Positions 1 to 33,624 of a DNA stretch of 33,640 nucleotides are shown here, piece after piece (position 1 is the stretch's first letter; every line of letters starts with the position of its first letter). Origin of the DNA: Gammaproteobacteria bacterium (lineage in GTDB: Bacteria > Pseudomonadota > Gammaproteobacteria > CAIRSR01). The notes beneath the pieces were generated by a model. That model was not told where the DNA came from. It saw nothing but the letters and a program-made list of their open reading frames with translations, and made no database searches. The DNA lies in contig CAUYTW010000166.1 in the NCBI GenBank assembly GCA_963575715.1, positions 1 to 33,640 of the forward strand, written 5' to 3'. The translations under genes and the position numbers were made by a program.

Positions 1-62
1 AGGACGACACCAACCTGGCGCCGGTGGCGATGACGTTGCCGGAATGCGGGCGTCCAATGAAT

Positions 63-134
63 CGCGAACCGTGCGGCAATGCGCAGGAGCCTGCCAGGGA
101 AGGCAGGCGACTAAGCATTAGCGGCGGACTCCAA
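63..134 (+). repeat. Structured leader repeat, copy J1
   Basis: A 72-base stretch upstream of leuA matches 29178-29249 on the other strand at 65 of 72 positions by eye, including an identical 29-base 3' part (106-134). It folds well: a GCCTGCC/GGCAGGC hairpin around AGGGAA, a CTAA-GCA-TTAG mini-hairpin, and a closing GGAG/CTCC stem. One G-C pair in the first hairpin becomes A-T in the other copy. Sequence further upstream (from about position 1) also looks related, so the unit may begin outside the window. Both copies sit upstream of a gene in the same orientation. The family is not recognised; a mobile structured RNA (for instance HEARO-like) is only a possibility. Confidence 0.6.
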
Positions 135-14343: not shown

Positions 14344-14679
14344 CAAAGTCTCCGAGAGAGCCACCTTGACTTTAGCCATGGGGAGGAAAGGAGACGATTT
14401 TGCAACTGTCTGTTAAAAAATCGGTCTTTCCCGGCTGTCTGCCTGTAAGGGTAAATCGGCTTGCGCCGGTTATGTTTGCCTCGGCAAAGATTGATGCGTT
14501 TTTTACACCGCACACTTTCGTTGCATCCGCAACTGCATGATGTACAACGACAGAGCTACAGACTGGCACGCATCGGTAGGTGTCATGACGCAAAAATCGT
14601 AGATCGTCTATTTGCATAGATTTTCTTAGCCTGGTCATGATTGGTCTTTACAAGCCCCGGCTTTAGCTGTGGGGTTCAT
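14344..14679 (+). mobile_element. IS200/IS605-like non-autonomous element A (pilP-pilQ gap)
   Basis: About 336 bases with no ORF. It follows TTTCAC. The left end has an outer stem GTCTCC (14348-14353)/GGAGAC (14390-14395) around a CTTTAGCCATGG hairpin. An internal TCGGTCTTTCCCGG hairpin follows. The right end is CTTAGCCTGGTCA followed by the hairpin at 14655-14674 (CCCCGGC, TTTA, GCTGTGGGG) and TTCAT. Shared internal blocks with copies C and D include a GCATCCGC...AGAGCTAC motif. It separates pilQ from the rest of its operon. Confidence 0.75.
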
Positions 14680-14702
14680 GGATAGATAGCAACTTGGGTT
14701 AC

Positions 14703-22491: not shown

Positions 22492-23832
22492 TTAGTGTTC
22501 CAACATTTTTTCCAGATAATGAATATTGGTACCTCCGTGCTCAAAATTGATATCCGCTAAAATAATCTGATGAAGTGAGATATTAGTTTTAATACCTTCA
22601 ACAACAATTTCTGCAAGTGCATTGCGCATCCGCGCGATTGCACGAGGGCGATCCTCGCCATGAGCGATTAATTTACCAATCAGTGAATCATAATAAGGAG
22701 GAACCCGATAGCCCGTATAAAGATGAGAATCCACTCGAATACCAGGGCCACCCGGTGCGTGGTACATTGTGACGATTCCTGGCGAAGGGATGAAACGCTG
22801 CGGATCTTCGGCGTTAATACGGCATTCGATGGCGTGGCCACGCCAAGTAATGTCCGATTGACGATAAGCAAGTGACTCACCAGCAGCAATACGAATCTGT
22901 TCACGCACGATATCGACTCCGGTGACCATTTCCGTAATTGGATGTTCCACCTGGACCCTAGTGTTCATTTCGATAAAGTAAAACTCTCCATCCTGATATA
23001 AAAATTCGAAGGTACCTGCGCCCCGGTATCCGATTTCTAAGCAAGCCTGAACACAACGATCTCCAATTTGATTACTTATCTCGCGGGTAATGCCCGGAGC
23101 GGGAGATTCTTCCACCACTTTCTGATGACGGCGTTGCATTGAGCAATCACGCTCCCCGAGGTGAATAGCATTGCCATGGGTATCGGAAAGCACTTGAAAT
23201 TCCACATGACGTGGATTATCTAAGTAACGCTCCATGTAGACCATGGGATTACCGAAAGCATTGGCAGCCTCGGTTCGAGTCAGGGAAATAGCAGTGATGA
23301 GATTGGCCTCGCTATACACCACGCGCATTCCGCGACCACCACCACCACCAGCAGCCTTGATAATTAAGGGATAACCGATATCGTGGGCAATTTTAAGATT
23401 TTCTTCGTCGTTTTCACCCAAAGAACTATCGGAGCCTGGCACTGTGGGAACACCGGCGCGCTTCATAGCCAGAATTGCTTGAACTTTATCCCCCATCAAA
23501 CGAATATTGTCAGGGCGCGGTCCAATAAAAATAAAACCGCTATGCTCGACACGTTCAGCAAAATCAGCATTTTCAGAAAGAAAACCATAGCCAGGATGGA
23601 TGGCACTGGCATCGGTAACCTCAGCTGCGCTAATTACCGCAGGTACATTTAGATAACTCCCAGTAGCCATGGGAGGACCAATACATACCGATTCGTCGGC
23701 TAAACGTACATGCTTAAGGTCACGATCAGCCGTGGAATGAACGGCCACAGTACGAATATCCATCTCGTGGCACGCACGTAAAATGCGTAGGGCGATTTCG
23801 CCACGATTGGCAATAACAACTTTTTTTATCAT
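22492..23832 (-). CDS. accC: Acetyl-CoA carboxylase, biotin carboxylase subunit
   Basis: Carboxylates the biotin of AccB using ATP and bicarbonate, in the first committed step of fatty-acid synthesis. It starts [21 protein letters not shown], as in E. coli AccC. The ATP-grasp glycine-rich loop [14 protein letters not shown] and [16 protein letters not shown] are present. Length (446 aa) is standard. The start codon is also the insertion target (TCAT on the plus strand) of element C, so the leader is element sequence. The GGAG of the element's left-end stem (23839-23842) lies six bases before the ATG and can serve as ribosome site. Confidence 0.97.
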
Positions 23833-24203
23833 CAGAGTCTCCGAAACCTCACCCTTGAGGGCGGGGACGAAAGGAGACGGTTTTGCAACCGTTGGTAAAA
23901 TGCCGGTCTTTTCCGGCGGTCAGCCGGTAAGCAGCCCAAGTGACACACACCTTGCGGTGTGTGTTCTCATCGCCACTGTTGCAACGCAGCGTATTGCGAC
24001 AAACCGTTGCGTAGTTATCCGTACCGGGTCTGCATTTGCCGCTTTCATTGCTTAGAGTTGCCTGTCTGCCGACAGGCAGGAGGAAACGCCCCAAGGTGAG
24101 TCTTTAATTACTGCATTGCAACGTCGCCCGATTGCTCGGACTTAGGCTGGTCAATCTCCGACTTGTTGCCACAAACCTCGCCCTTGAGGGCGGGGAGATT
24201 GAT
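23833..24203 (+). mobile_element. IS200/IS605-like element C, abutting the accC start
   Basis: About 371 bases filling the accB-accC gap, directly after TCAT (23829-23832). The left end has an outer stem GTCTCC (23837-23842)/GGAGAC (23873-23878) around a CCTCACCC/GGGCGGGG hairpin. Internal features are the GCCGGTCTTTTCCGGC and CACACACC/GGTGTGTG hairpins, a GTTGCAACGCAGC block, CCTGTC-tgcc-GACAGG (24061-24076), and GGACTTAGGCTGGTCAA. The right-end hairpin is 24176-24195, then AGATTGAT. Its two end hairpins match each other rather than those of A, B or E, which suggests covariation of the ends. Confidence 0.78.
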
Positions 24204-24692: not shown

Positions 24693-24714
24693 GGACTTTA
24701 AGTTGCTTATTCAT

Positions 24715-25105
24715 ATATCTTTGGCGTGGAAACCCCCTCGATCCCGAAGAGTGGAGGGGAGGAAACGCTGTCTTTGGTGTTAATCAAAGGTTAGCAAAAC
24801 TAGATGCCGGTCTTTCCCAGCGGCCAGGCACTTACGCGGCCCTAGTAGTGTGGCTCCCCTCGCCAAAGTTGTAACGCAGCTTCGATTCTTGCGAACTTTG
24901 CAGCAGACCATTTCGTTCCATCCCAGGAATGTCTGCATCCGCTACTTTCAGAGCTACGAACTTACGAACTGAGGAAGCATTCGTAGATGAGTCTTGTACT
25001 TCGTTGCAACGTAGTCCAATGTTTTGGACTTAGGCTAGTCAAGCTGGGACTTATGAGTTTTACCTCACCAGAGCCTCGCTCCAGAATGGTCGAGAGGCTC
25101 TTGAC
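24715..25105 (+). mobile_element. IS200/IS605-like element D (accB-aroQ gap)
   Basis: About 391 bases directly after TTCAT (24710-24714), filling most of the 443-base gap. The left end has outer stem GGCGT (24723-24727)/ACGCT (24765-24769) around CCCCCTC...GAGGGG. The GCCGGTCTTTCCCAGC hairpin, CTCGCCAAAGTTGTAACGCAGC, TCTGCATCCGCTACTTTCAG, GTTGCAACGTAGTCC and GGACTTAGGCTAGTCAA blocks are shared with A and C. The right end is a GAGCCTCG/CGAGAGGCTC hairpin (25071-25100) followed by TTGAC. No ORF. Confidence 0.77.
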
Positions 25106-26233: not shown

Positions 26234-26568
26234 GCAACTTCCTGATAATTAACGCTTTCTATAATCCAATTTAAATAGTTTGGCAGCCCGTGCGCAATGT
26301 GAAGGGCTATGACTTCGGGGATGTGATAGGGATGGTGTTTGGTTAAACAATCCTCTAGCGCCTGATACACGGAAGCGTGAGTCTTGATTATCAATAGATG
26401 CTCCGCAGAAGTTTCTACATTTCCCGCCCAACGATAAACCGAAGTAATGCCAGGCAAGAGATTGACACAGGCGGCGAGGCGTTCCTCCACAATGGTATTA
26501 GCCAAGGTACGGGCGACCTCAGCATTCGGGCAGGTGCATAACACAACCAATAACTTATCGGTGCTCAT
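26230..26568 (-). CDS. cutA: Divalent-cation tolerance protein CutA
   Basis: Small trimeric ferredoxin-like protein (112 aa) linked to copper tolerance in E. coli; its exact role is unresolved. Typical motifs are LVVLCTCPNAEVARTLANTIVEERLAACVNLLPG and KTHASVYQALEDCLTKHHPY. The ATG is the reverse complement of the TCAT at which element E is inserted, so the gene's entire leader is element sequence. No Shine-Dalgarno lies within 15 bases of the start. A 12-codon mini-ORF in the element ends in a TGA overlapping this ATG. Confidence 0.95.
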   Translation of the reverse strand: MSTDKLLVVLCTCPNAEVARTLANTIVEERLAACVNLLPGITSVYRWAGNVETSAEHLLIIKTHASVYQALEDCLTKHHPYHIPEVIALHIAHGLPNYLNWIIESVNYQEVA

Positions 26569-26603
26569 CCAAATTCGGCGCGAAAACCCCTGGCTTTAGC
26601 CAT
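26565..26603 (-). CDS. Possible leader mini-ORF of cutA inside element E
   Basis: ATG GCT AAA GCC ... encodes MAKARGFRAEFG and ends in TGA that overlaps the cutA ATG as ATGA. AGGAGG (26619-26624) lies 15 bases upstream, longer than ideal. Similar peptides occur before rluB and flgN. The frame also coincides with the end hairpin, so structure alone could explain the conservation. Confidence 0.3.
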   Translation of the reverse strand: MAKARGFRAEFG

Positions 26604-26747
26604 GGTGAGAAAGCGCCACCTCCTGTTTTTTCTTGCTGAAGTTGCCGATCTTTCCCGGCCGTCAACCCTTTCGGGTCTGGTGACACACAACTTGCGGTGT
26701 GGCTTCCCTCGCCAATTCAATTAAAGTCCCCGGCTTTAACCGTGGGG
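26569..26747 (+). mobile_element. IS200/IS605-like element E, abutting the cutA start
   Basis: About 179 bases directly after TCAT (26565-26568). The left end has outer stem GGCGC (26577-26581)/GCGCC (26613-26617) around CCCCTGGC-ttta-GCCATGG, then CCTCCTGTTTTTT. The GCCGATCTTTCCCGGC and CACAC...GTGTG hairpins and CTCGCCAA follow. The right-end hairpin (26728-26747; CCCCGGC, TTTA, ACCGTGGGG) overlaps the 3' end of tolC and provides its stop codon. Confidence 0.78.
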
Positions 26748-28103
26748 TGATTTACGGCTGTCTTTATCAGTAAGCCATGCATTCACACTCTGTAAATCAG
26801 CCTCATCAAGTTGTCCCGCCGCATGGTTGAGACGCAAAGTATCCAGGACATATTCATAACGTGCCCGCGAGTAATCACGCTCCGCTGCAAAGAGAAGACG
26901 TTGGGTATTGAGTACATCAACGATGGTGCGCGTCCCCACGTTGTAACCCGCTTCTGTGGCCTGGAGGGCGCTCTGGTTGGAAACAACCGCCTGCTTTAGT
27001 GCCTTAACCCGTGAAATCTCCGTCACTACTCCGAGATAAGATTTTCTGGCGGAAAGTATCGTGGCCCGTTGGCTTTGCTCTAGCAGATCCAGCGTGCGGG
27101 CATAGTCTGATTCTGATTGACGTACCCGAGAATTAATTAGTCCGCCCTGGTAAAGAGGCATCGAAAGCTGCAATCCAATAACGGCGCTATCGGTATCGGT
27201 GGTGCCCGCAACACTACCCCCACTAATATTTTGAATCTTGACGCCACCTACTGCGTCAAGGCGCGGATAGTGACCAGAACGTTGCACCTCAATATATTTT
27301 TTTGCGCCTTCCACTTGAAAACGAGCAGCTTCCAAGGTCGGATTGCGTTTGACGGCGATCTCAGCCCAACGATCGGGATCGGCAGGATCAGGAGGAACCA
27401 GCGGCGTTTTTTCGCTCAAGGAAGCAAGATCGCCAGGATAGTTTCCCGTGATTTCACGTAGTGCTTCTTTAACATTGGCGACTTGATTCTCGGCGGCGAG
27501 TTCCTGAGCAACCGTAAGGTCATAACTCGCCTGGGCCTCGTGGACATCGGTAATTGCGATGAGACCCACCGCGAATCGCTGCTTACTTTGTTCAAGCTGG
27601 CGTCCGACCGCACGTTTTTCAGCGCGCACGGTTTCCAGCGCGTCAAGGGCAGCGAGAACATCGAAATAACGCTCCGCTACCCGTAACATCAACGCTTGAT
27701 GGGCAGCGCCATATTCAGCCTCCACCTGGCTTACTTGAAAGTTCGATTTCTCCAGTACCAGCGCTGTTTCTCGATGGTAGATCGGTTGAGTAATGTTGAG
27801 CGCAGCACCATGATCGGAAAAATTTTTCGTTTGACCCGAGCTGGCTCCGCCTTGGCCTAGGGCCGCCGCATTTGCGTAACTGGTTTTTTGACGATTGAAA
27901 TTCAGATCCGCGTTGGCACTAATCGTCGGTAAAAATCCCGACCTGGCCTGAAGCACTACCTCTTGAGTGGAATTCCGCATGGCAGCAGCCGCTGCTAACT
28001 GCGGATCATGCTCCAATGCGAGGCGATAGACTGTCATCAAATCCTCAGCCCTAGAAACAGCGGGCAGAGCCGAAAGCACAACAGCGAACAGAGCAAGAAT
28101 CAC
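26736..28103 (-). CDS. tolC: TolC family outer-membrane efflux protein
   Basis: Trimeric outer-membrane channel for type I secretion and drug efflux. The 455-residue protein has a signal peptide (LALFAVVLSALPAVSRA) and two OEP repeats with long helices; motifs include GFLPTISANADLNFNRQ, QPIYHRETALVLEKS, MPLYQGGLINSRVRQSESDY and AGYNVGTRTIVDVLNTQR. The GTG start at 28103 is fixed by AAGGA upstream and an in-frame stop before it. The last three codons (PHG) and the TAA lie inside the right-end hairpin of element E, so the original C terminus has probably been replaced. Confidence 0.95.
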   Translation of the reverse strand: MILALFAVVLSALPAVSRAEDLMTVYRLALEHDPQLAAAAAMRNSTQEVVLQARSGFLPTISANADLNFNRQKTSYANAAALGQGGASSGQTKNFSDHGAALNITQPIYHRETALVLEKSNFQVSQVEAEYGAAHQALMLRVAERYFDVLAALDALETVRAEKRAVGRQLEQSKQRFAVGLIAITDVHEAQASYDLTVAQELAAENQVANVKEALREITGNYPGDLASLSEKTPLVPPDPADPDRWAEIAVKRNPTLEAARFQVEGAKKYIEVQRSGHYPRLDAVGGVKIQNISGGSVAGTTDTDSAVIGLQLSMPLYQGGLINSRVRQSESDYARTLDLLEQSQRATILSARKSYLGVVTEISRVKALKQAVVSNQSALQATEAGYNVGTRTIVDVLNTQRLLFAAERDYSRARYEYVLDTLRLNHAAGQLDEADLQSVNAWLTDKDSRKSPHG

Positions 28104-28137
28104 TGCTAATCCTTAACTTGTTGATAAATCATGAGTA

Positions 28138-28458
28138 TCAGTAGACGGGCATGGCAGGATCAACATCGCGTGCCCACGCGGCCACGCCTCCAGTCAGATT
28201 GATCACGTTGGTGAAGCCCATATGCTCCAGAAAATAGGCAACTTGATAACTCCGCACTCCGTGGTGGCAGATCACCACCGTTTCGCGGTTTTTGTCAAGG
28301 GTTTGGTAAGAGGTCGGAATTTGGCGCATTGGAAGAAGTTGTGCTCCCTCAAGACGGCATACCTGATATTCCCAAGGCTCGCGTACATCTAATAAAAACG
28401 GAGCCACACGAGCCTGGTTTAGATATTCCTTAAGCTGCATCGGCGAGAGGTGGCGCAT
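28138..28458 (-). CDS. Single-domain rhodanese-like protein
   Basis: Predicted sulfurtransferase of 106 aa with FLLDVREPWEYQVCRLEGAQLLPM and the active-site loop CHHGVRS (Cys64). Single-domain rhodaneses of this type are often found between a Pcm-like gene and tolC in gammaproteobacteria, as here. Substrate unknown. Confidence 0.9.
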   Translation of the reverse strand: MRHLSPMQLKEYLNQARVAPFLLDVREPWEYQVCRLEGAQLLPMRQIPTSYQTLDKNRETVVICHHGVRSYQVAYFLEHMGFTNVINLTGGVAAWARDVDPAMPVY

Positions 28459-28487
28459 GAATAATTCCAGTCTAATAATTCCGGTCT

Positions 28488-29150
28488 TTAAAATAAGAAA
28501 CGCCGCTGGCCGGTCGCGTTCACCAACGGAGTAAGAATGGTTTCAAAAATGTCTTCCCTGGCATAGGCGTCTTCCCCAATTCGCGTCACCAAACATGCTT
28601 TCATTACCGGAGGCACACCAACCACGGCAAACATTCGTCCCCCGGGACGCAGGCTGCGTGAGAACGTGTCAGGTAGTTCAGGCATGGAGCCGGTAAGGAC
28701 AATCACATCATAAGGCGCATGACGATCCCAGCCTGCAGCGGCGTCCCCTTGCTCCAGAGTCACATTAGTGATTCCTAGAGAAGTCAGGCGTTCGTATGCG
28801 CTAGTCACAAAATCGTCATAAATATCGACGCTATAAACATGTTTGGCAAGGCTAGCCAATAGCGCAGTGACAAAACCGCTGCCAGTACCCACTTCCAAGA
28901 CTATATCTGTAGGACGCAACGCCAAAGTCTGAAGCATGCGTCCCTCGACGACGGGAAACATGGTTGCCTGACCATGACCAATAGGAATCTCAATGGCGGC
29001 AAAAGCGAAGTTACGGTAAATTGGTGGTACAAACTTTTCCCTAGGAATGTTTCCTAGTACATCCAACACCTGGGAGTCAAGGACATCCCAAGGCTGTATT
29101 TGTTGTTTCACCATGTTGAAACGAGCATGATCCAAATTAATATTAGGCAT
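28488..29150 (-). CDS. Pcm-like protein-L-isoaspartate methyltransferase family protein
   Basis: SAM-dependent methyltransferase of 220 aa in the Pcm (PIMT) family. SAM motif I is VLEVGTGSGFVTALLA (about 84-99) and motif II is VYSVDIYDDFV. In true Pcm the region after motif zero reads GQTISQP; here it is GHGQATMFPVV, so the substrate-contact residues differ and repair of isoaspartate is uncertain. ATG 29150 (MPNINLDHARFNM) is the family start, with GGAG upstream. The frame runs open to 29417, but that part is the leader containing repeat J2 and is probably not translated. Confidence 0.85.
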   Translation of the reverse strand: MPNINLDHARFNMVKQQIQPWDVLDSQVLDVLGNIPREKFVPPIYRNFAFAAIEIPIGHGQATMFPVVEGRMLQTLALRPTDIVLEVGTGSGFVTALLASLAKHVYSVDIYDDFVTSAYERLTSLGITNVTLEQGDAAAGWDRHAPYDVIVLTGSMPELPDTFSRSLRPGGRMFAVVGVPPVMKACLVTRIGEDAYAREDIFETILTPLVNATGQRRFLF

Positions 29151-29566
29151 TGCCGATGTCTCCAGAGGGTAGGGGTGTTGGAGTCCGCCGCTAATGCTTA
29201 GTCGCCTATCTTCCCTGTTAGGCTCCAACGCATTGCAGCACGGTTCGCGCTTCAGGCGCTGGGTTGGTGCCGTCCGCCACGCGCATGACTTTCGGGCCTG
29301 CTGCCCGTAGCGATCATCTATTTTTTCAGGTCTTCTTGACAAAACTGCATACCCTAGACCCAAAAGTAATGGTAGCGCGAAGCCATCCAAATCGCAAAGC
29401 ACCAACGGAGCGTACAATCAACATCTGCCGCCGACTGCCAGCTCCGCTGCACTACGCAATGGCTTGAATCGTTGGGGTTGCGTGTCATCCATGGCTCGAT
29501 TCACTGTGGGAAAAATCTGAAACAGGTTTTTCTATTATCAAAAAACAGTCAAGCAGGATTTTAGTC
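29151..29566. other. Divergent pcm-flgA intergenic region
   Basis: No gene is supported. The pcm side holds repeat J2 and, upstream of it on the minus strand, further possible stems: CGCTAC pairing with GTGGCG around a CGGGC-agcag-GCCCG hairpin (about 29268-29314), and GGGTCT pairing with AGACC (about 29327-29362). Together these suggest a leader RNA of about 200 bases. The flgA side has AGGA before the ATG; no promoter was recognised with confidence. Confidence 0.45.
29178..29249 (-). repeat. Structured leader repeat, copy J2
   Basis: Partner of J1 (63-134), in the leader of the pcm-like gene. The closing stem TTGGAG/CTCCAA is perfect here. The inner hairpin reads GCCTAAC/GATAGGC against GCCTGCC/GGCAGGC in J1: one changed pair is compensated, one becomes a mismatch. 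The 3' 29 bases are identical in both copies. Confidence 0.6.
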
Positions 29567-30280
29567 ATGCGTTTTCCGTTCAGTTATCCATGCTGCATAT
29601 TTTTATTGAGTTTATTTTGTATCCCACTGACCGCCGGCAGCGCGCAAAACATCCAAAGTCTTGATTCTATAACCACCGCTGTAACTGCATTCCTCAGTAC
29701 GTTGCGAGGCGAAAGTAAATCACCCCCCGTCATCAGCGTGGACTCACTGGATCCACGATTACGTCTTTCCATGTGTGATACCCCACTAGAGGTATCACTA
29801 GCACCCGGTGCCCGTTCAACTGGCAGAATGGTGGTCATGGTGCGTTGTTCCTCGCCCCGTCCATGGTCGGTATATGTTCCCGCAAAAATAGCGATGCCGG
29901 TGTTCGTCGTTGTCGCAGCTCGTCCCTTACTTAGAGATCAAGTAATAACCCCCGCTGATATTGCCGTTGAACAACGAGATTCCAGTGATCTTCCAGCGGG
30001 TTATTTGACGGATCCTAACCAAATCCTCGGCAAGTCACTCACCCGTCCGGCAGCAGCGGGATCGATTTTAATTCCGGGTCAGACCCGTAATCCGATAGTG
30101 ATACGCCGAGGAGAGCGAGTTACTCTCTTGATACAGAGCACGGGACTGACAGTACGCAGCATGGGTGTGGCACTCGCAGATGCCGGTGCCGGGGATCGGA
30201 TCTCAGTGCGCAATGAAAGCTCACGGCGGATAGTCGAAGGTATCGTGGAAAAAGCCGGCGTGGTAGTCATGGAGTGGTGA
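29567..30280 (+). CDS. flgA: Flagellar P-ring assembly chaperone FlgA
   Basis: Periplasmic chaperone needed to assemble the P ring (FlgI). A signal peptide covers about residues 1-25 (CCIFLLSLFCIPLTAGSA). The C-terminal half (about 115-237) is the SAF domain, with RPLLRDQVITPADIAVEQRD and IRRGERVTLLIQSTGLTVRSMGVALADAGAGDRISVRN. Length (237 aa) is normal. AGGA precedes the ATG. It heads the flgAMN group. Confidence 0.94.
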   Translation: MRFPFSYPCCIFLLSLFCIPLTAGSAQNIQSLDSITTAVTAFLSTLRGESKSPPVISVDSLDPRLRLSMCDTPLEVSLAPGARSTGRMVVMVRCSSPRPWSVYVPAKIAMPVFVVVAARPLLRDQVITPADIAVEQRDSSDLPAGYLTDPNQILGKSLTRPAAAGSILIPGQTRNPIVIRRGERVTLLIQSTGLTVRSMGVALADAGAGDRISVRNESSRRIVEGIVEKAGVVVMEW

Positions 30281-30288
30281 TGAGCTTT

Positions 30289-30303
30289 ATGTCTTTAAGA
30301 CAT
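30289..30303. promoter_or_regulatory. Palindrome between flgA and flgM
   Basis: ATGTCTT-T-AAGACAT is a perfect inverted repeat just before the flgM promoter. It may be a regulator site or a weak RNA end. Confidence 0.3.
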
Positions 30304-30311
30304 TAGATTCC

Positions 30312-30338
30312 TAAAGATTTTCTCACCACTGCCGCTAT
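30312..30338 (+). promoter_or_regulatory. Sigma-28 (FliA) promoter of flgM
   Basis: TAAA (30312-30315), exactly 15 bases, then GCCGCTAT (30331-30338), close to the known FliA consensus TAAA-N15-GCCGATAA. flgM is a FliA target in enteric bacteria, so the position fits. Confidence 0.7.
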
Positions 30339-30365
30339 TATCGACATAACTTTGGAGAAACTTTC

Positions 30366-30704
30366 ATGACCATTGAGATCGCCAGCCCCCAAGCGGTAAC
30401 AAAAAACGTCCCAATAAACAAAATCGCCACTCATAATCAAGGGGATCAACGTGATATCCAACGGGTTAATCAACAATCATCGGTTGCCGCTGCCCATGAC
30501 GACCGCGTGATCCTGACAGCGGCGGCTGAACGTCTCCGCCAGGCAGAGGATAGTAGTGTGAAACAGCCTGTTGTTGATACTAAACGTGTGGAAAATATCC
30601 GAGAGCAAATTAATAATGGGACTTACCGCGTCAATGCTTCTCGTGTTGCGGACAAACTCTTTAACTTTGAATCTTCTCTAAATGGTGCCTCTCGGAAACA
30701 TTGA
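30366..30704 (+). CDS. flgM: Anti-sigma-28 factor FlgM
   Basis: Binds FliA and holds late flagellar genes off until it is exported through the completed hook-basal body. The 112-residue protein has a disordered, polar N-terminal half and the conserved C-terminal FliA-binding helices (VENIREQINNGTYRVNASRVADKLFNFE). A GGAGAA ribosome site precedes the ATG and a FliA promoter lies upstream. Confidence 0.92.
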   Translation: MTIEIASPQAVTKNVPINKIATHNQGDQRDIQRVNQQSSVAAAHDDRVILTAAAERLRQAEDSSVKQPVVDTKRVENIREQINNGTYRVNASRVADKLFNFESSLNGASRKH

Positions 30705-30711
30705 GAAACAA

Positions 30712-30801
30712 AAATGGCTTTAGCTACTACTATTAAATAACAGGAGGGCGGCGCTTCCTCACCATGGCAGAAGCCAAGGTTTTCCGCGCCGTACATGCTG
30801 G
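30712..30801 (-). mobile_element. IS200/IS605-like element I (reverse), abutting the flgN start
   Basis: Shortened copy of the family in minus orientation, ending exactly before the flgN ATGA (30802-30805). Read on the minus strand it has the left-end stem GGCGC/GCGCC (plus-strand arms 30750-30754 and 30786-30790) around ACCTTGGC...GCCATGGTGAGGAAGC, then CCCTCCTG, as in E and G. A trace of a CTTTAGC hairpin lies near 30716-30726. It separates flgM from flgN. Confidence 0.7.
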
Positions 30802-30805
30802 ATGA
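30764..30805 (+). CDS. Possible leader mini-ORF of flgN inside element I
   Basis: Encodes MAEAKVFRAVHAG and stops in TGA overlapping the flgN ATG (ATGA). AGGAGG (30742-30747) lies 16 bases upstream. It corresponds position by position to the mini-ORFs before cutA and rluB. Confidence 0.3.
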   Translation: MAEAKVFRAVHAG

Positions 30806-31296
30806 ATCAGCCGTTGAACATGGATTTATTTCCTGGATTAGTTGAGCAATTATCTGCGCAAACAAGTATTGCGGAAGAACTTTTATCACTTTTGGAACAA
30901 GAGCCGACCGTGTTGGCGAGTCGTGATCATCACGACATTGTTGATCTATCTCGTCATAAACAATATCTCGCCGAAAAATTAGCGGAAGAAGAAAATAAAC
31001 GGTGCCATTATTTAGAAACAGCAGGATTGCCAACGGATTTGTTGTTATTGGAAACCGCACTCAGGGAAGCTGGTGCCGAAACAGCAGCCACTGCTTGTCA
31101 AAATCTCAAGCAGTCGGCCGCCGCATGCGCCGAGCATAATCGCAATAATGGAATCTTGGTGGAAAATAGATTGCGTCACGTAGCGCGGGCATTGGAAATC
31201 GTGACAGGACAAAGCAGTGAAACAACTGAAATTACCTACGGCGCGCAGTCTAAACGGCTAGGGCGAGGCAACGGGCGTTCATGGGCAAAAGTGTGA
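30802..31296 (+). CDS. flgN: Flagellar export chaperone FlgN
   Basis: Cytoplasmic chaperone for the hook-filament junction proteins FlgK and FlgL. The 164-residue protein is mostly helical with the FlgN pattern LLSLLEQEPTVLASRDHHDIVDLSRHKQYLAEKL and a C-terminal helix. ATG 30802 is favoured because element I ends there; ATG 30820 (MDLFPG) is an alternative. Neither has a normal Shine-Dalgarno, so initiation may depend on coupling. Confidence 0.85.
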   Translation: MNQPLNMDLFPGLVEQLSAQTSIAEELLSLLEQEPTVLASRDHHDIVDLSRHKQYLAEKLAEEENKRCHYLETAGLPTDLLLLETALREAGAETAATACQNLKQSAAACAEHNRNNGILVENRLRHVARALEIVTGQSSETTEITYGAQSKRLGRGNGRSWAKV

Positions 31297-31320
31297 AAAT
31301 TCAGGATTAAATCAAATTAA

Positions 31321-31358
31321 ATTAAGAATCTCACGAATTTATTCGTGGGATTCTTAAT
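31321..31358. terminator. Long hairpin between flgN and the small membrane gene
   Basis: ATTAAGAATC-t-CACGAAT/ATTCGTG-g-GATTCTTAAT forms a nearly perfect 18-base stem between two convergent genes. There is no long T-run, but position and symmetry suggest bidirectional termination. Parts of it recur at 31805-31818 and about 31909-31919. Confidence 0.6.
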
Positions 31359-31385
31359 CTACGCCAAAATTTCGCCCACGTCCAA

Positions 31386-31730
31386 TCAATGAATAGGTTC
31401 ACCACTGGCATTTAATGCGTGGATATTCCGCTGTACGAAGTCCTGCCCAAAAACTCCACCGAGAACCGCGCTCAACAGTACCAACGGAAGGGAAAGTCCA
31501 GCACCGCTTTCCATTGCCTCTGCGAAACCCGCCCCTTCATACATCATGGTGCTACTGGAAATCAATCCAACCGTTCCACTGGCCAGTACCACGCCGAGCA
31601 CCCCTGCGCCTAACATGGCCAGGTTTTTGTTGAAATTTTCGGACAAACCCCGGGTGTTTTGTGGTTCGGCACCCAGCGCCGGTATGCTTAAACTCAGCAT
31701 CAATACTGTAGACATAAATAATTTACGCAT
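31386..31730 (-). CDS. Small predicted membrane protein, unknown function
   Basis: Not recognised. The 114-residue product has a signal peptide (about 1-20, ending IPALGA), a short polar stretch, a Gly/Ala-rich hydrophobic segment at about 37-60 and a second at about 78-97, then a polar tail. A perfect AGGAGG precedes the ATG, so it is probably translated well. It lies between a strong hairpin and element F, and a 14-base direct repeat (31348-31361 and 31805-31818) flanks it, which could mean it moved as a unit. Confidence 0.7.
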   Translation of the reverse strand: MRKLFMSTVLMLSLSIPALGAEPQNTRGLSENFNKNLAMLGAGVLGVVLASGTVGLISSSTMMYEGAGFAEAMESGAGLSLPLVLLSAVLGGVFGQDFVQRNIHALNASGEPIH

Positions 31731-31764
31731 AATAACCTCCTAAATTATGGCTTAAAAATTTTAT

Positions 31765-31896
31765 AAATTTTTGGCGTGGAAACACTCGATCCTGAAGGGT
31801 CGAAGGATTCTTAATCTAACCATAGCACCCTCCGACGCAGCGGACAATTACATATTTTCTAAACCACCCCATGGCTAAAGCCAGGGGGTTTCAAGG
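31765..31896. mobile_element. Element F: two facing left ends of the IS605-like family
   Basis: On the plus strand TTTAT (31760-31764) is followed by the typical GGCGTGGAAACAC and a CTCGATCCTGAAGGGTCGA hairpin. On the minus strand TTCAT is followed by CCTTGAAACCCCCTGGC-ttta-GCCATGGGG (right boundary at 31896). No internal GCCGG hairpin or right end was seen. It may be the remains of two converging copies joined by deletion. Confidence 0.6.
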
Positions 31897-31900
31897 ATGA
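31871..31900 (+). CDS. Orphan mini-ORF in element F
   Basis: Encodes MAKARGFQG and ends in TGA overlapping an ATGA, as in the cutA and flgN leaders, but the ATG opens only a ten-codon frame and no gene follows on this strand. It shows that the stop-start arrangement belongs to the element and its target, not to the genes. Confidence 0.2.
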   Translation: MAKARGFQG

Positions 31901-31922
31901 ACCCATCTTATTCGTGGGAGTG

Positions 31923-32792
31923 TCAATAAAATCTGCCCCGGCGTCCTCTGTTCTGCTCTACTCCGCTACGCGACGCTGGGGGTCGCTCGCCTTCCTTGGT
32001 TCGCTTCGATGACGCGCGAAACTGACTGGTGTTGGACTGCTTTGGATTGGATATTTCAGTCATTCCGGCCAGTTTCAGTAGACTTTGAACGACATTTAAT
32101 GGTGCCTCTTCCCAGCGGCCGCGATGTAGGCCACGCGGTAGCAGCACGGGTCCAAATCGCACCCGGATAAGTCGACTAACCTGAATACCTTGCGATTCCC
32201 AGAGGCGACGCACTTCTCGGTTACGTCCCTCCTTGAGTATTCCTCGATACCAATGATTCGCTCCTTCCCCTCCAGCATCGATTAGATGCTCAAAATGGGC
32301 CAGACCATCCTCTAAGTCAACCCCAGCGCAAAGGGCTTGCAACTTGGTTGCCTCAATTTGACCCAATACGCGCATTGCATACTCCCGTTCCAGCTCTTGG
32401 GATGGATGCATAAGACGGTGAGCCAGCTCTCCGTCGGTAGTAAGAATGATTAACCCACTCGTATTGAAATCCAGACGCCCTACCGCTACCCATCGACTAT
32501 TACGCGTCATGGGCAGGTGATCAAACAGCGTCGGACGACCTTGAGGATCCTTTCTGGTGCAGACTTCTCCCTCGGGTTTATGGTAAAGCAGTACACGGCG
32601 GCGGCTAGGTTGAGCATGAAGGGTTACAAGCTGGCCATCAATACGAATACGCTCCTGACCAGTTACTCGTTGACCCAAAATCGCTTGTGTTTCGTTCACG
32701 GAAATTCTGCCAGCAGTAATCCATGTCTCGACTTCGCGGCGCGAGCCAACACCTATCCGCGCTAATATTTTTTGCAATTTTTCAGTATTCAT
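31923..32792 (-). CDS. rluB: 23S rRNA pseudouridine synthase RluB
   Basis: Converts U2605 (E. coli numbering) of 23S rRNA to pseudouridine. An S4 RNA-binding domain (MNTEKLQKILARIGVGSRREVE, to about residue 60) is followed by the RsuA-type catalytic domain with GRLDFNTSGLIILTTDG, catalytic Asp108. YRGILKEGRNREVRRLWE and LIRVRFGPVLLPRGL confirm the RluB/RsuA family. The tail (about 245-289) is basic and disordered. ATG 32792 is also the TCAT target of element G; no Shine-Dalgarno is present and a mini-ORF stop overlaps the start as TGATG. Confidence 0.94.
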   Translation of the reverse strand: MNTEKLQKILARIGVGSRREVETWITAGRISVNETQAILGQRVTGQERIRIDGQLVTLHAQPSRRRVLLYHKPEGEVCTRKDPQGRPTLFDHLPMTRNSRWVAVGRLDFNTSGLIILTTDGELAHRLMHPSQELEREYAMRVLGQIEATKLQALCAGVDLEDGLAHFEHLIDAGGEGANHWYRGILKEGRNREVRRLWESQGIQVSRLIRVRFGPVLLPRGLHRGRWEEAPLNVVQSLLKLAGMTEISNPKQSNTSQFRASSKRTKEGERPPASRSGVEQNRGRRGRFY

Positions 32793-32827
32793 CAAAATTC
32801 GACGCGGAAACCCCTGACTTTAGCCAT
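32792..32827 (-). CDS. Possible leader mini-ORF of rluB inside element G
   Basis: Encodes MAKVRGFRVEF and ends in TGA that shares its A with the rluB ATG (TGATG). An AGGAGG (32848-32853) lies 20 bases upstream, too far for a classical ribosome site. It differs from the cutA leader peptide by two Ala-to-Val changes and a lost final Gly. Confidence 0.3.
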   Translation of the reverse strand: MAKVRGFRVEF

Positions 32828-32932
32828 GGGACGGAAGCGCGCGCAGCCCTCCTGTTTTTTTTGTTTTTGAATGAAACGTTGCCAATCTTTCCCGACTGGC
32901 AGCCTATAAGTGGCACAATAATGATGGTTAGA
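32793..32932 (+). mobile_element. IS200/IS605-like element G, abutting the rluB start
   Basis: Directly after TCAT (32789-32792). It has GACGCGGAAACCCCTGAC-ttta-GCCATGGG, CCTCCTGTTTTTTTT and a GCCAATCTTTCCCGACTGGC hairpin, then runs out before the nuclease stop codon. The right-end hairpin is missing, so it is truncated. Confidence 0.72.
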
Positions 32933-33490: not shown

Positions 33491-33556
33491 CTAAATTCGG
33501 CGCGAAAACCCTGGCTTTAGCCATGAAGCGCCATCCTCCTATTTTTTTGAAATTGA
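33491..33556 (+). mobile_element. IS200/IS605-like element H, abutting the nuclease start
   Basis: Left end only, directly after TTCAT. Outer stem GGCGC (33499-33503)/GCGCC (33528-33532) around CCTGGC-ttta-GCCATG, then CCTCCTATTTTTTTG. One G is missing compared with E and G, so the mini-ORF frame is not preserved. The right part is absent or decayed. Confidence 0.65.
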
Positions 33557-33597
33557 AGTGATACGAGTTATGCAGTTGAAAAATAATTTTTAACGTG

Positions 33598-33624
33598 AAC
33601 TCGACGTAAGGAGTCGAGTTTTTT
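33598..33624 (+). terminator. Terminator-like hairpin near the window end
   Basis: AACTCGAC/GTCGAGTT stem with a seven-base loop followed by T residues on the plus strand. No plus-strand gene precedes it here, so it may belong to element H or end an antisense transcript. Confidence 0.5.

Follow-up and report, generated by a model that had tools for sequence, protein, structure and literature searches.

Ends of HEARO-type elements at gene start codons as candidate hairpin-split ribosome-binding sites in a gammaproteobacterial genome

HEARO elements are flanked at their end by ATGA or GTGA. IscB-type nucleases use the HEARO RNA as their omega-RNA (PMC9755519), and DtIsrB, a relative of IscB, uses an NTGA TAM and cuts TTGA as well as ATGA targets (PMC9581776). 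Ribosome-binding sites that are split by a hairpin have been described in a different context, for T4 genes 38 and 25, where they work and where the spacing falls from 22 to 5 and from 27 to 11 nt (PMC3014915). The elements studied here share with HEARO and the standalone omega-RNAs of IscB the match to the RNA model, an iscB gene in the same genome, many copies without an ORF and an NTGA-type flank at the right end. They differ in that right ends of two classes, designated E and G, are found at gene starts, and in that many copies consist of the right end only. With the miniature elements of the IS200/IS605 type they have in common imperfect subterminal hairpins, which are present at the element ends, a fixed short target at one flank and a Y1 transposase available in the genome. 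Here, however, the target coincides with start codons, and the resident TnpA is a putative mobilising enzyme for class E.

The window, i.e., the whole stretch of 33,640 nucleotides that was analysed, contains three mini-ORFs that stop on the ATG of the next gene, and these are present just as an earlier note on this DNA had described them: MAKARGFRAEFG before cutA (26603-26565, minus strand), MAKVRGFRVEF before rluB (32827-32792, minus strand) and MAEAKVFRAVHAG before flgN (30764-30805, plus strand). The stop codon overlaps the gene's start as ATGA at cutA and flgN and as TGATG at rluB, and an AGGAGG lies 15 (cutA), 20 (rluB) and 16 nt (flgN) ahead of the mini-ORF. Gene identities were assigned by protein family (cutA, PF03091; rluB, S4 plus PF00849; flgN, PF05130), and the closest named match for rluB is a Thiotrichales MAG with 71% identity. 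What had been called left ends of the elements before these genes are right ends in HEARO orientation. The copy at cutA is a truncated HEARO-type element (26569..26755, minus strand) that retains its left-end hairpin (26728-26747) and a class-E right end, which was matched genome-wide, while the omega-RNA in the middle is deleted. Its AGGAGG is located at 26619..26624, and its target/TAM, ATGA (26565..26568), is the start codon of cutA. The mini-ORF here, as in class E in general, is made up of the 3' half of the element's terminal hairpin, the linker and the target, in agreement with the earlier remark that the coding stretch is also a hairpin. Further class-E right ends precede rluB (32789..32853, minus strand; AGGAGG 32848-32853, target ATGA 32792-32789) and flgN (30742..30805, plus strand; AGGAGG 30742-30747, target ATGA 30802-30805), and no recognisable element was seen upstream of the latter. 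A fourth one, copy H, is situated before a gene for an SNase protein (PF00565; 33487..33550, minus strand; AGGAGG 33535-33540, ATG 33524, target ATGA 33490-33487). Its mini-ORF is indeed broken by a deletion, which comprises a single base, and the start of the SNase gene is real nevertheless. Copy F (31870..31895, plus strand), which had been listed as a further case of overlap, carries a similar hairpin from another type of element end, and its ATGA is internal without any gene start. It was rejected as a comparable copy: ATGAACCCATC / ATGAACCC also follows the hairpin in other copies of its kind, and ATGAACCCATC is therefore part of the element itself.

The Rfam model for HEARO (RF02033) has 136 matches in the genome (3.70 Mb, 363 contigs), 63 of them above the cut-off. 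One RNA above the cut-off is located in the window at 14469..14680 on the minus strand. Two full-length elements on the same strand, at 23829..24203 (RNA 23959-24203) and 24711..25105 (RNA 24848-25105), gave matches that are strong though below the cut-off. The first of them ends with GGAGACTCTG directly before an ATGA that is the start of an ORF reading as accC (23832), the second ends at an ATGA 19 nt before an ORF reading as accB (24692), and both are without a mini-ORF. The copies at cutA, rluB and flgN are truncated and do not themselves match the HEARO covariance model. Intact class-E elements with RNA are found elsewhere in the genome, and the one in locus L148 matches the HEARO model above the gathering score; what lies ahead of cutA, rluB, flgN and the SNase gene is the right end of an element of this kind, in most cases a truncated one. 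Three matches to Y1 transposase exceed the cut-off, and one of these follows an intact iscB in an omega-RNA/iscB/tnpA unit on contig C351. This unit (locus L116, 2081-220, minus strand) is apparently complete, and its right end resembles neither class E nor class G. Because of this difference, no autonomous partner of class E was seen in the genome. All in all, the repeats belong to the IS200/IS605 superfamily as ORF-less, often truncated HEARO (RF02033) / IscB-IsrB (OMEGA) elements. The explanation as a whole, in which their end may supply a split ribosome-binding site where they lie at start codons, is in our view quite probable.

Right ends were collected genome-wide by the hairpin motif alone, without use of the flank. 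Class E is defined by AACAGGAGGACGGCGC..CATGGCTAAAGCC..GCGCCGAATTTGG and class G by ends reading GGAGACACTG or GGGGACATTG. ATGA follows directly in 70 of the 72 parsed class-E copies and comes next in most class-G copies, and GTGA follows in 19 of 20 copies of a further class, C. Just before the ATGA, the right end forms a nested hairpin, with CGGCGC..GCGCCG on the outside and CCCC-a-TGGC/GCCA-GGGG on the inside. In class E the hairpin ATG and the ATGA are always 35 or 38 nt apart, and this places the TGA of the ATGA in frame with the mini-ORF. In class G the corresponding distance is a multiple of three, which would result in an N-terminal fusion instead of a stop. Where class-G copies contain CATGG (e.g., at L144 +51, L201 -50 and L202 +2534), the ATG in the hairpin shares the frame of the gene's ATG and would add MAKARGISGTM- extensions to real proteins. 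What looks like a stop placed on the ATG of the next gene is thus the target site of the element, and the coding stretch is its terminal hairpin. An excess of in-frame copies, to which the earlier note had attached importance, does exist genome-wide, but its cause is the fixed length of the element: the stop/start overlap occurs more often than by chance, yet a fixed element end together with a fixed target site accounts for it. Apparent "leader peptides" at repeats, with stop and start codons that overlap, can be target-site artefacts.

The same structures had been interpreted before as a mobile device for translational coupling, in which ribosomes would start at the AGGAGG, read through the mini-ORF and start anew at the gene's ATG, with which its stop overlaps. 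The geometry of the overlap and the upstream Shine-Dalgarno sequence are those of coupling at overlapping stop and start codons (ATGA, TGATG), the genes are devoid of a proximal Shine-Dalgarno sequence, and start, frame and stop of the mini-ORF are kept in 38 of 47 class-E copies at gene starts. However, the mini-ORF is intact in 24 of 25 class-E copies elsewhere, and the share of broken ones is, if anything, higher at gene starts (9/47) than away from them (1/25). The analysis of synonymous and nonsynonymous changes that the earlier note had asked for yielded no sign of selection on the mini-ORF: among the gene-start copies with the main type of linker, 74 changes are nonsynonymous and 12 synonymous (14%, with 28% expected at random), and substitutions are distributed 42:24:20 over codon positions 1:2:3. 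All five indels within mini-ORFs of gene-start copies break the frame, four further copies are without the ATG, and the genes behind them are still open. The mini-ORF ATG, at 15-20 nt from the AGGAGG, lies inside the hairpin, where its A forms a bulge between two stems in the predicted fold. Other families have CACGGC..GCCGGG at this position; here a T-A pair is swapped for C-G, and the ATG is lost while the pair is kept. In class G, the mini-ORF is mostly absent, with CATGG in only 6 of the 32 gene-start copies. The tests of frame, codon position and sister class rule out the mini-ORF as a selected reading frame, and unlike in known coupled genes the upstream ORF is neither kept by selection nor conserved as an ORF. 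What stands of the earlier proposal, with a stronger case than the bare sequence could give it, is a mobile element end that carries start signals for the next gene. Coupling may come in as an accessory effect; as the explanation of the arrangement it is very improbable.

Class-E right ends are strongly associated with gene starts. With a gene start taken to be an ATGA (or similar) at which a gene-like ORF begins, 48 of 72 copies are located at one, compared with 319 of 2307 (13.8%) ATGA sites that are either non-coding or at starts (p=1.4e-24; baseline from a simple gene caller on 828 kb around the copies, the copies being related by descent). By the same baseline criterion, 32 of 66 class-G candidates lie at gene starts (p=1.7e-11), a fraction that is conservative because the list holds some chance matches. 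None of the 20 copies of the GTGA class, class C, does so. Judged by their translated starts, the genes behind the element ends are presumably clpX, serC, dut, aroB, rluC, fliG, acs, thiC and others, and genes that look essential are among those affected. The diverged same-genus genome G001 is without any class-E copy; in most matched orthologs the start codon is the same one or lies close to it, without any element before it, and the rluB ortholog (locus L267) represents an empty site. Class G has undergone a separate expansion in G001, where 15 of 37 copies are located at gene starts (p=5.7e-5 when compared with the baseline of the source genome, G000), and the start-site association is thus repeated in a second species. 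The exact class-E pattern gave no match in the GTDB genomes, a set that possibly does not include the source genome, and one genome of the same family gave matches at the level of the hairpin only. G001 also contains a second HEARO subfamily (contigs C392, C408, C409 and C411; loci L392, L408, L409 and L411) with fragments of iscB-like reading frames after the RNA.

The earlier observation that cutA, rluB and flgN have no Shine-Dalgarno sequence of their own holds genome-wide: AGGA, GGAG or GAGG at -17 to -4 occurs in none of the 48 class-E gene-start copies, compared with 171 of 352 ordinary genes (shifted control, 20). The AGGAGG of the element is about 55 nt away from the gene's ATG, and with the hairpin folded this distance would shrink to about 8 nt, or to 11 nt with the second type of linker. 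In the consensus fold (-29 kcal/mol, z -3.2), the AGGAGG is found directly before the stem and the ATG 7 nt after it, so a stable hairpin is flanked by both signals at short effective spacing; the arrangement is weaker in individual copies, and those at rluB, cutA and the SNase gene fold less well than the consensus. As at T4 genes 38 and 25, Shine-Dalgarno sequence and AUG are too far apart and would be joined by the intervening hairpin, but the present site, which is predicted from sequence, belongs to a repeated mobile element and would bring a spacing of about 55 nt down to about 8. The outer stem of class E is 98% paired, and covariation in the hairpin does not exceed that in shuffles. 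Changes in the outer stem at gene starts tend to retain G-U in the sense RNA (15:2 vs 37:30, p=0.013), a bias that is absent from copies not at gene starts. At gene starts, no part of the element end is mutated less than the AGGAGG (1/240), although its intactness does not differ significantly between copies at gene starts (43/45) and those elsewhere (19/23; p=0.17), nor do private changes in it relative to the rest (p=0.09); p-values from mutation counts are optimistic since the copies are related by descent, and several comparisons were made. Many class-G copies have GGAG 6 nt before the ATG, and the variants with GGAG are overrepresented at starts (p=0.006). The GGGG variants are without a good Shine-Dalgarno sequence, yet they are found at starts too.

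These features lead us to lean towards the view that the element end replaces the displaced Shine-Dalgarno sequence at start sites and acts as a split ribosome-binding site. An element that targets ATGA would very often land right before a start codon and, once inserted there, would displace the gene's own Shine-Dalgarno sequence; the gene is left whole because the target ATGA is used as its start codon. AGGAGG and folded hairpin together would then form the split site for the next gene. A gene relying on the element end could not lose it, so start-site copies would persist while the remainder of the element decays. The left end is kept by few gene-start copies. Gene-start class-E copies carry about twice as many private changes as others (p=0.02) and hence look older, as would be expected if an end on which the gene depends is retained. 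The upstream homology score, which reflects loss of the element, is no different between gene starts and other places (p=0.41).

Alternatively, the ATGA of a start codon might be a tolerated landing place, the element end having no role in translation and leaderless or S1-dependent initiation being enough. About half of the ordinary genes here are likewise without an SD-like 4-mer and intactness of the AGGAGG does not distinguish the two groups of copies, as such a coincidence would predict. It is nevertheless rather unlikely in view of the four- to fivefold enrichment over other non-coding ATGA sites, the wobble bias of the sense strand at gene starts only, the enrichment of GGAG in class G and the essential-looking genes affected. 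A more serious contender, though still on the doubtful side, is a transposase that prefers start-codon ATGA independently of later selection, be it for single-stranded DNA near promoters or for a longer target. The class-G copies of G001 are near-identical and hence young, and 41% of them are already at starts. Moreover, the targets into which TnpA of IS608 integrates are single-stranded, and there is a preference for the base next to them (PMC5934647). This preference does not sit well with the complete absence of the GTGA-targeting class from starts, though GTGA is a rare start, and the excess of private changes in gene-start class-E copies points to retention as well. Insertion bias and the split ribosome-binding site may also act side by side. 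With regard to the latter, we infer that the element end drives translation and that gene dependence locks it in. We tentatively extend this to the whole family: IscB guide-RNA elements could have spread as portable, hairpin-bridged ribosome-binding sites on dozens of start codons, probably including those of essential genes, where they took over the start of translation and were locked in by gene dependence. If this is true, translation initiation is rewired genome-wide, with the genes left unbroken, by transposons of a family to which the ancestor of Cas9 is related, and the element survives by the dependence of host genes on its end.

Two other repeats were noted. One of them (CAACTGCGTAACTCCTAT, inverted form ATAGGAGTTACGCAGTTG) adjoins several element copies, at L156, at L116 and in the window at 33551-33620. 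The other is a 77-base inverted repeat with 90% complementarity between window positions 58-134 and 29178-29254.
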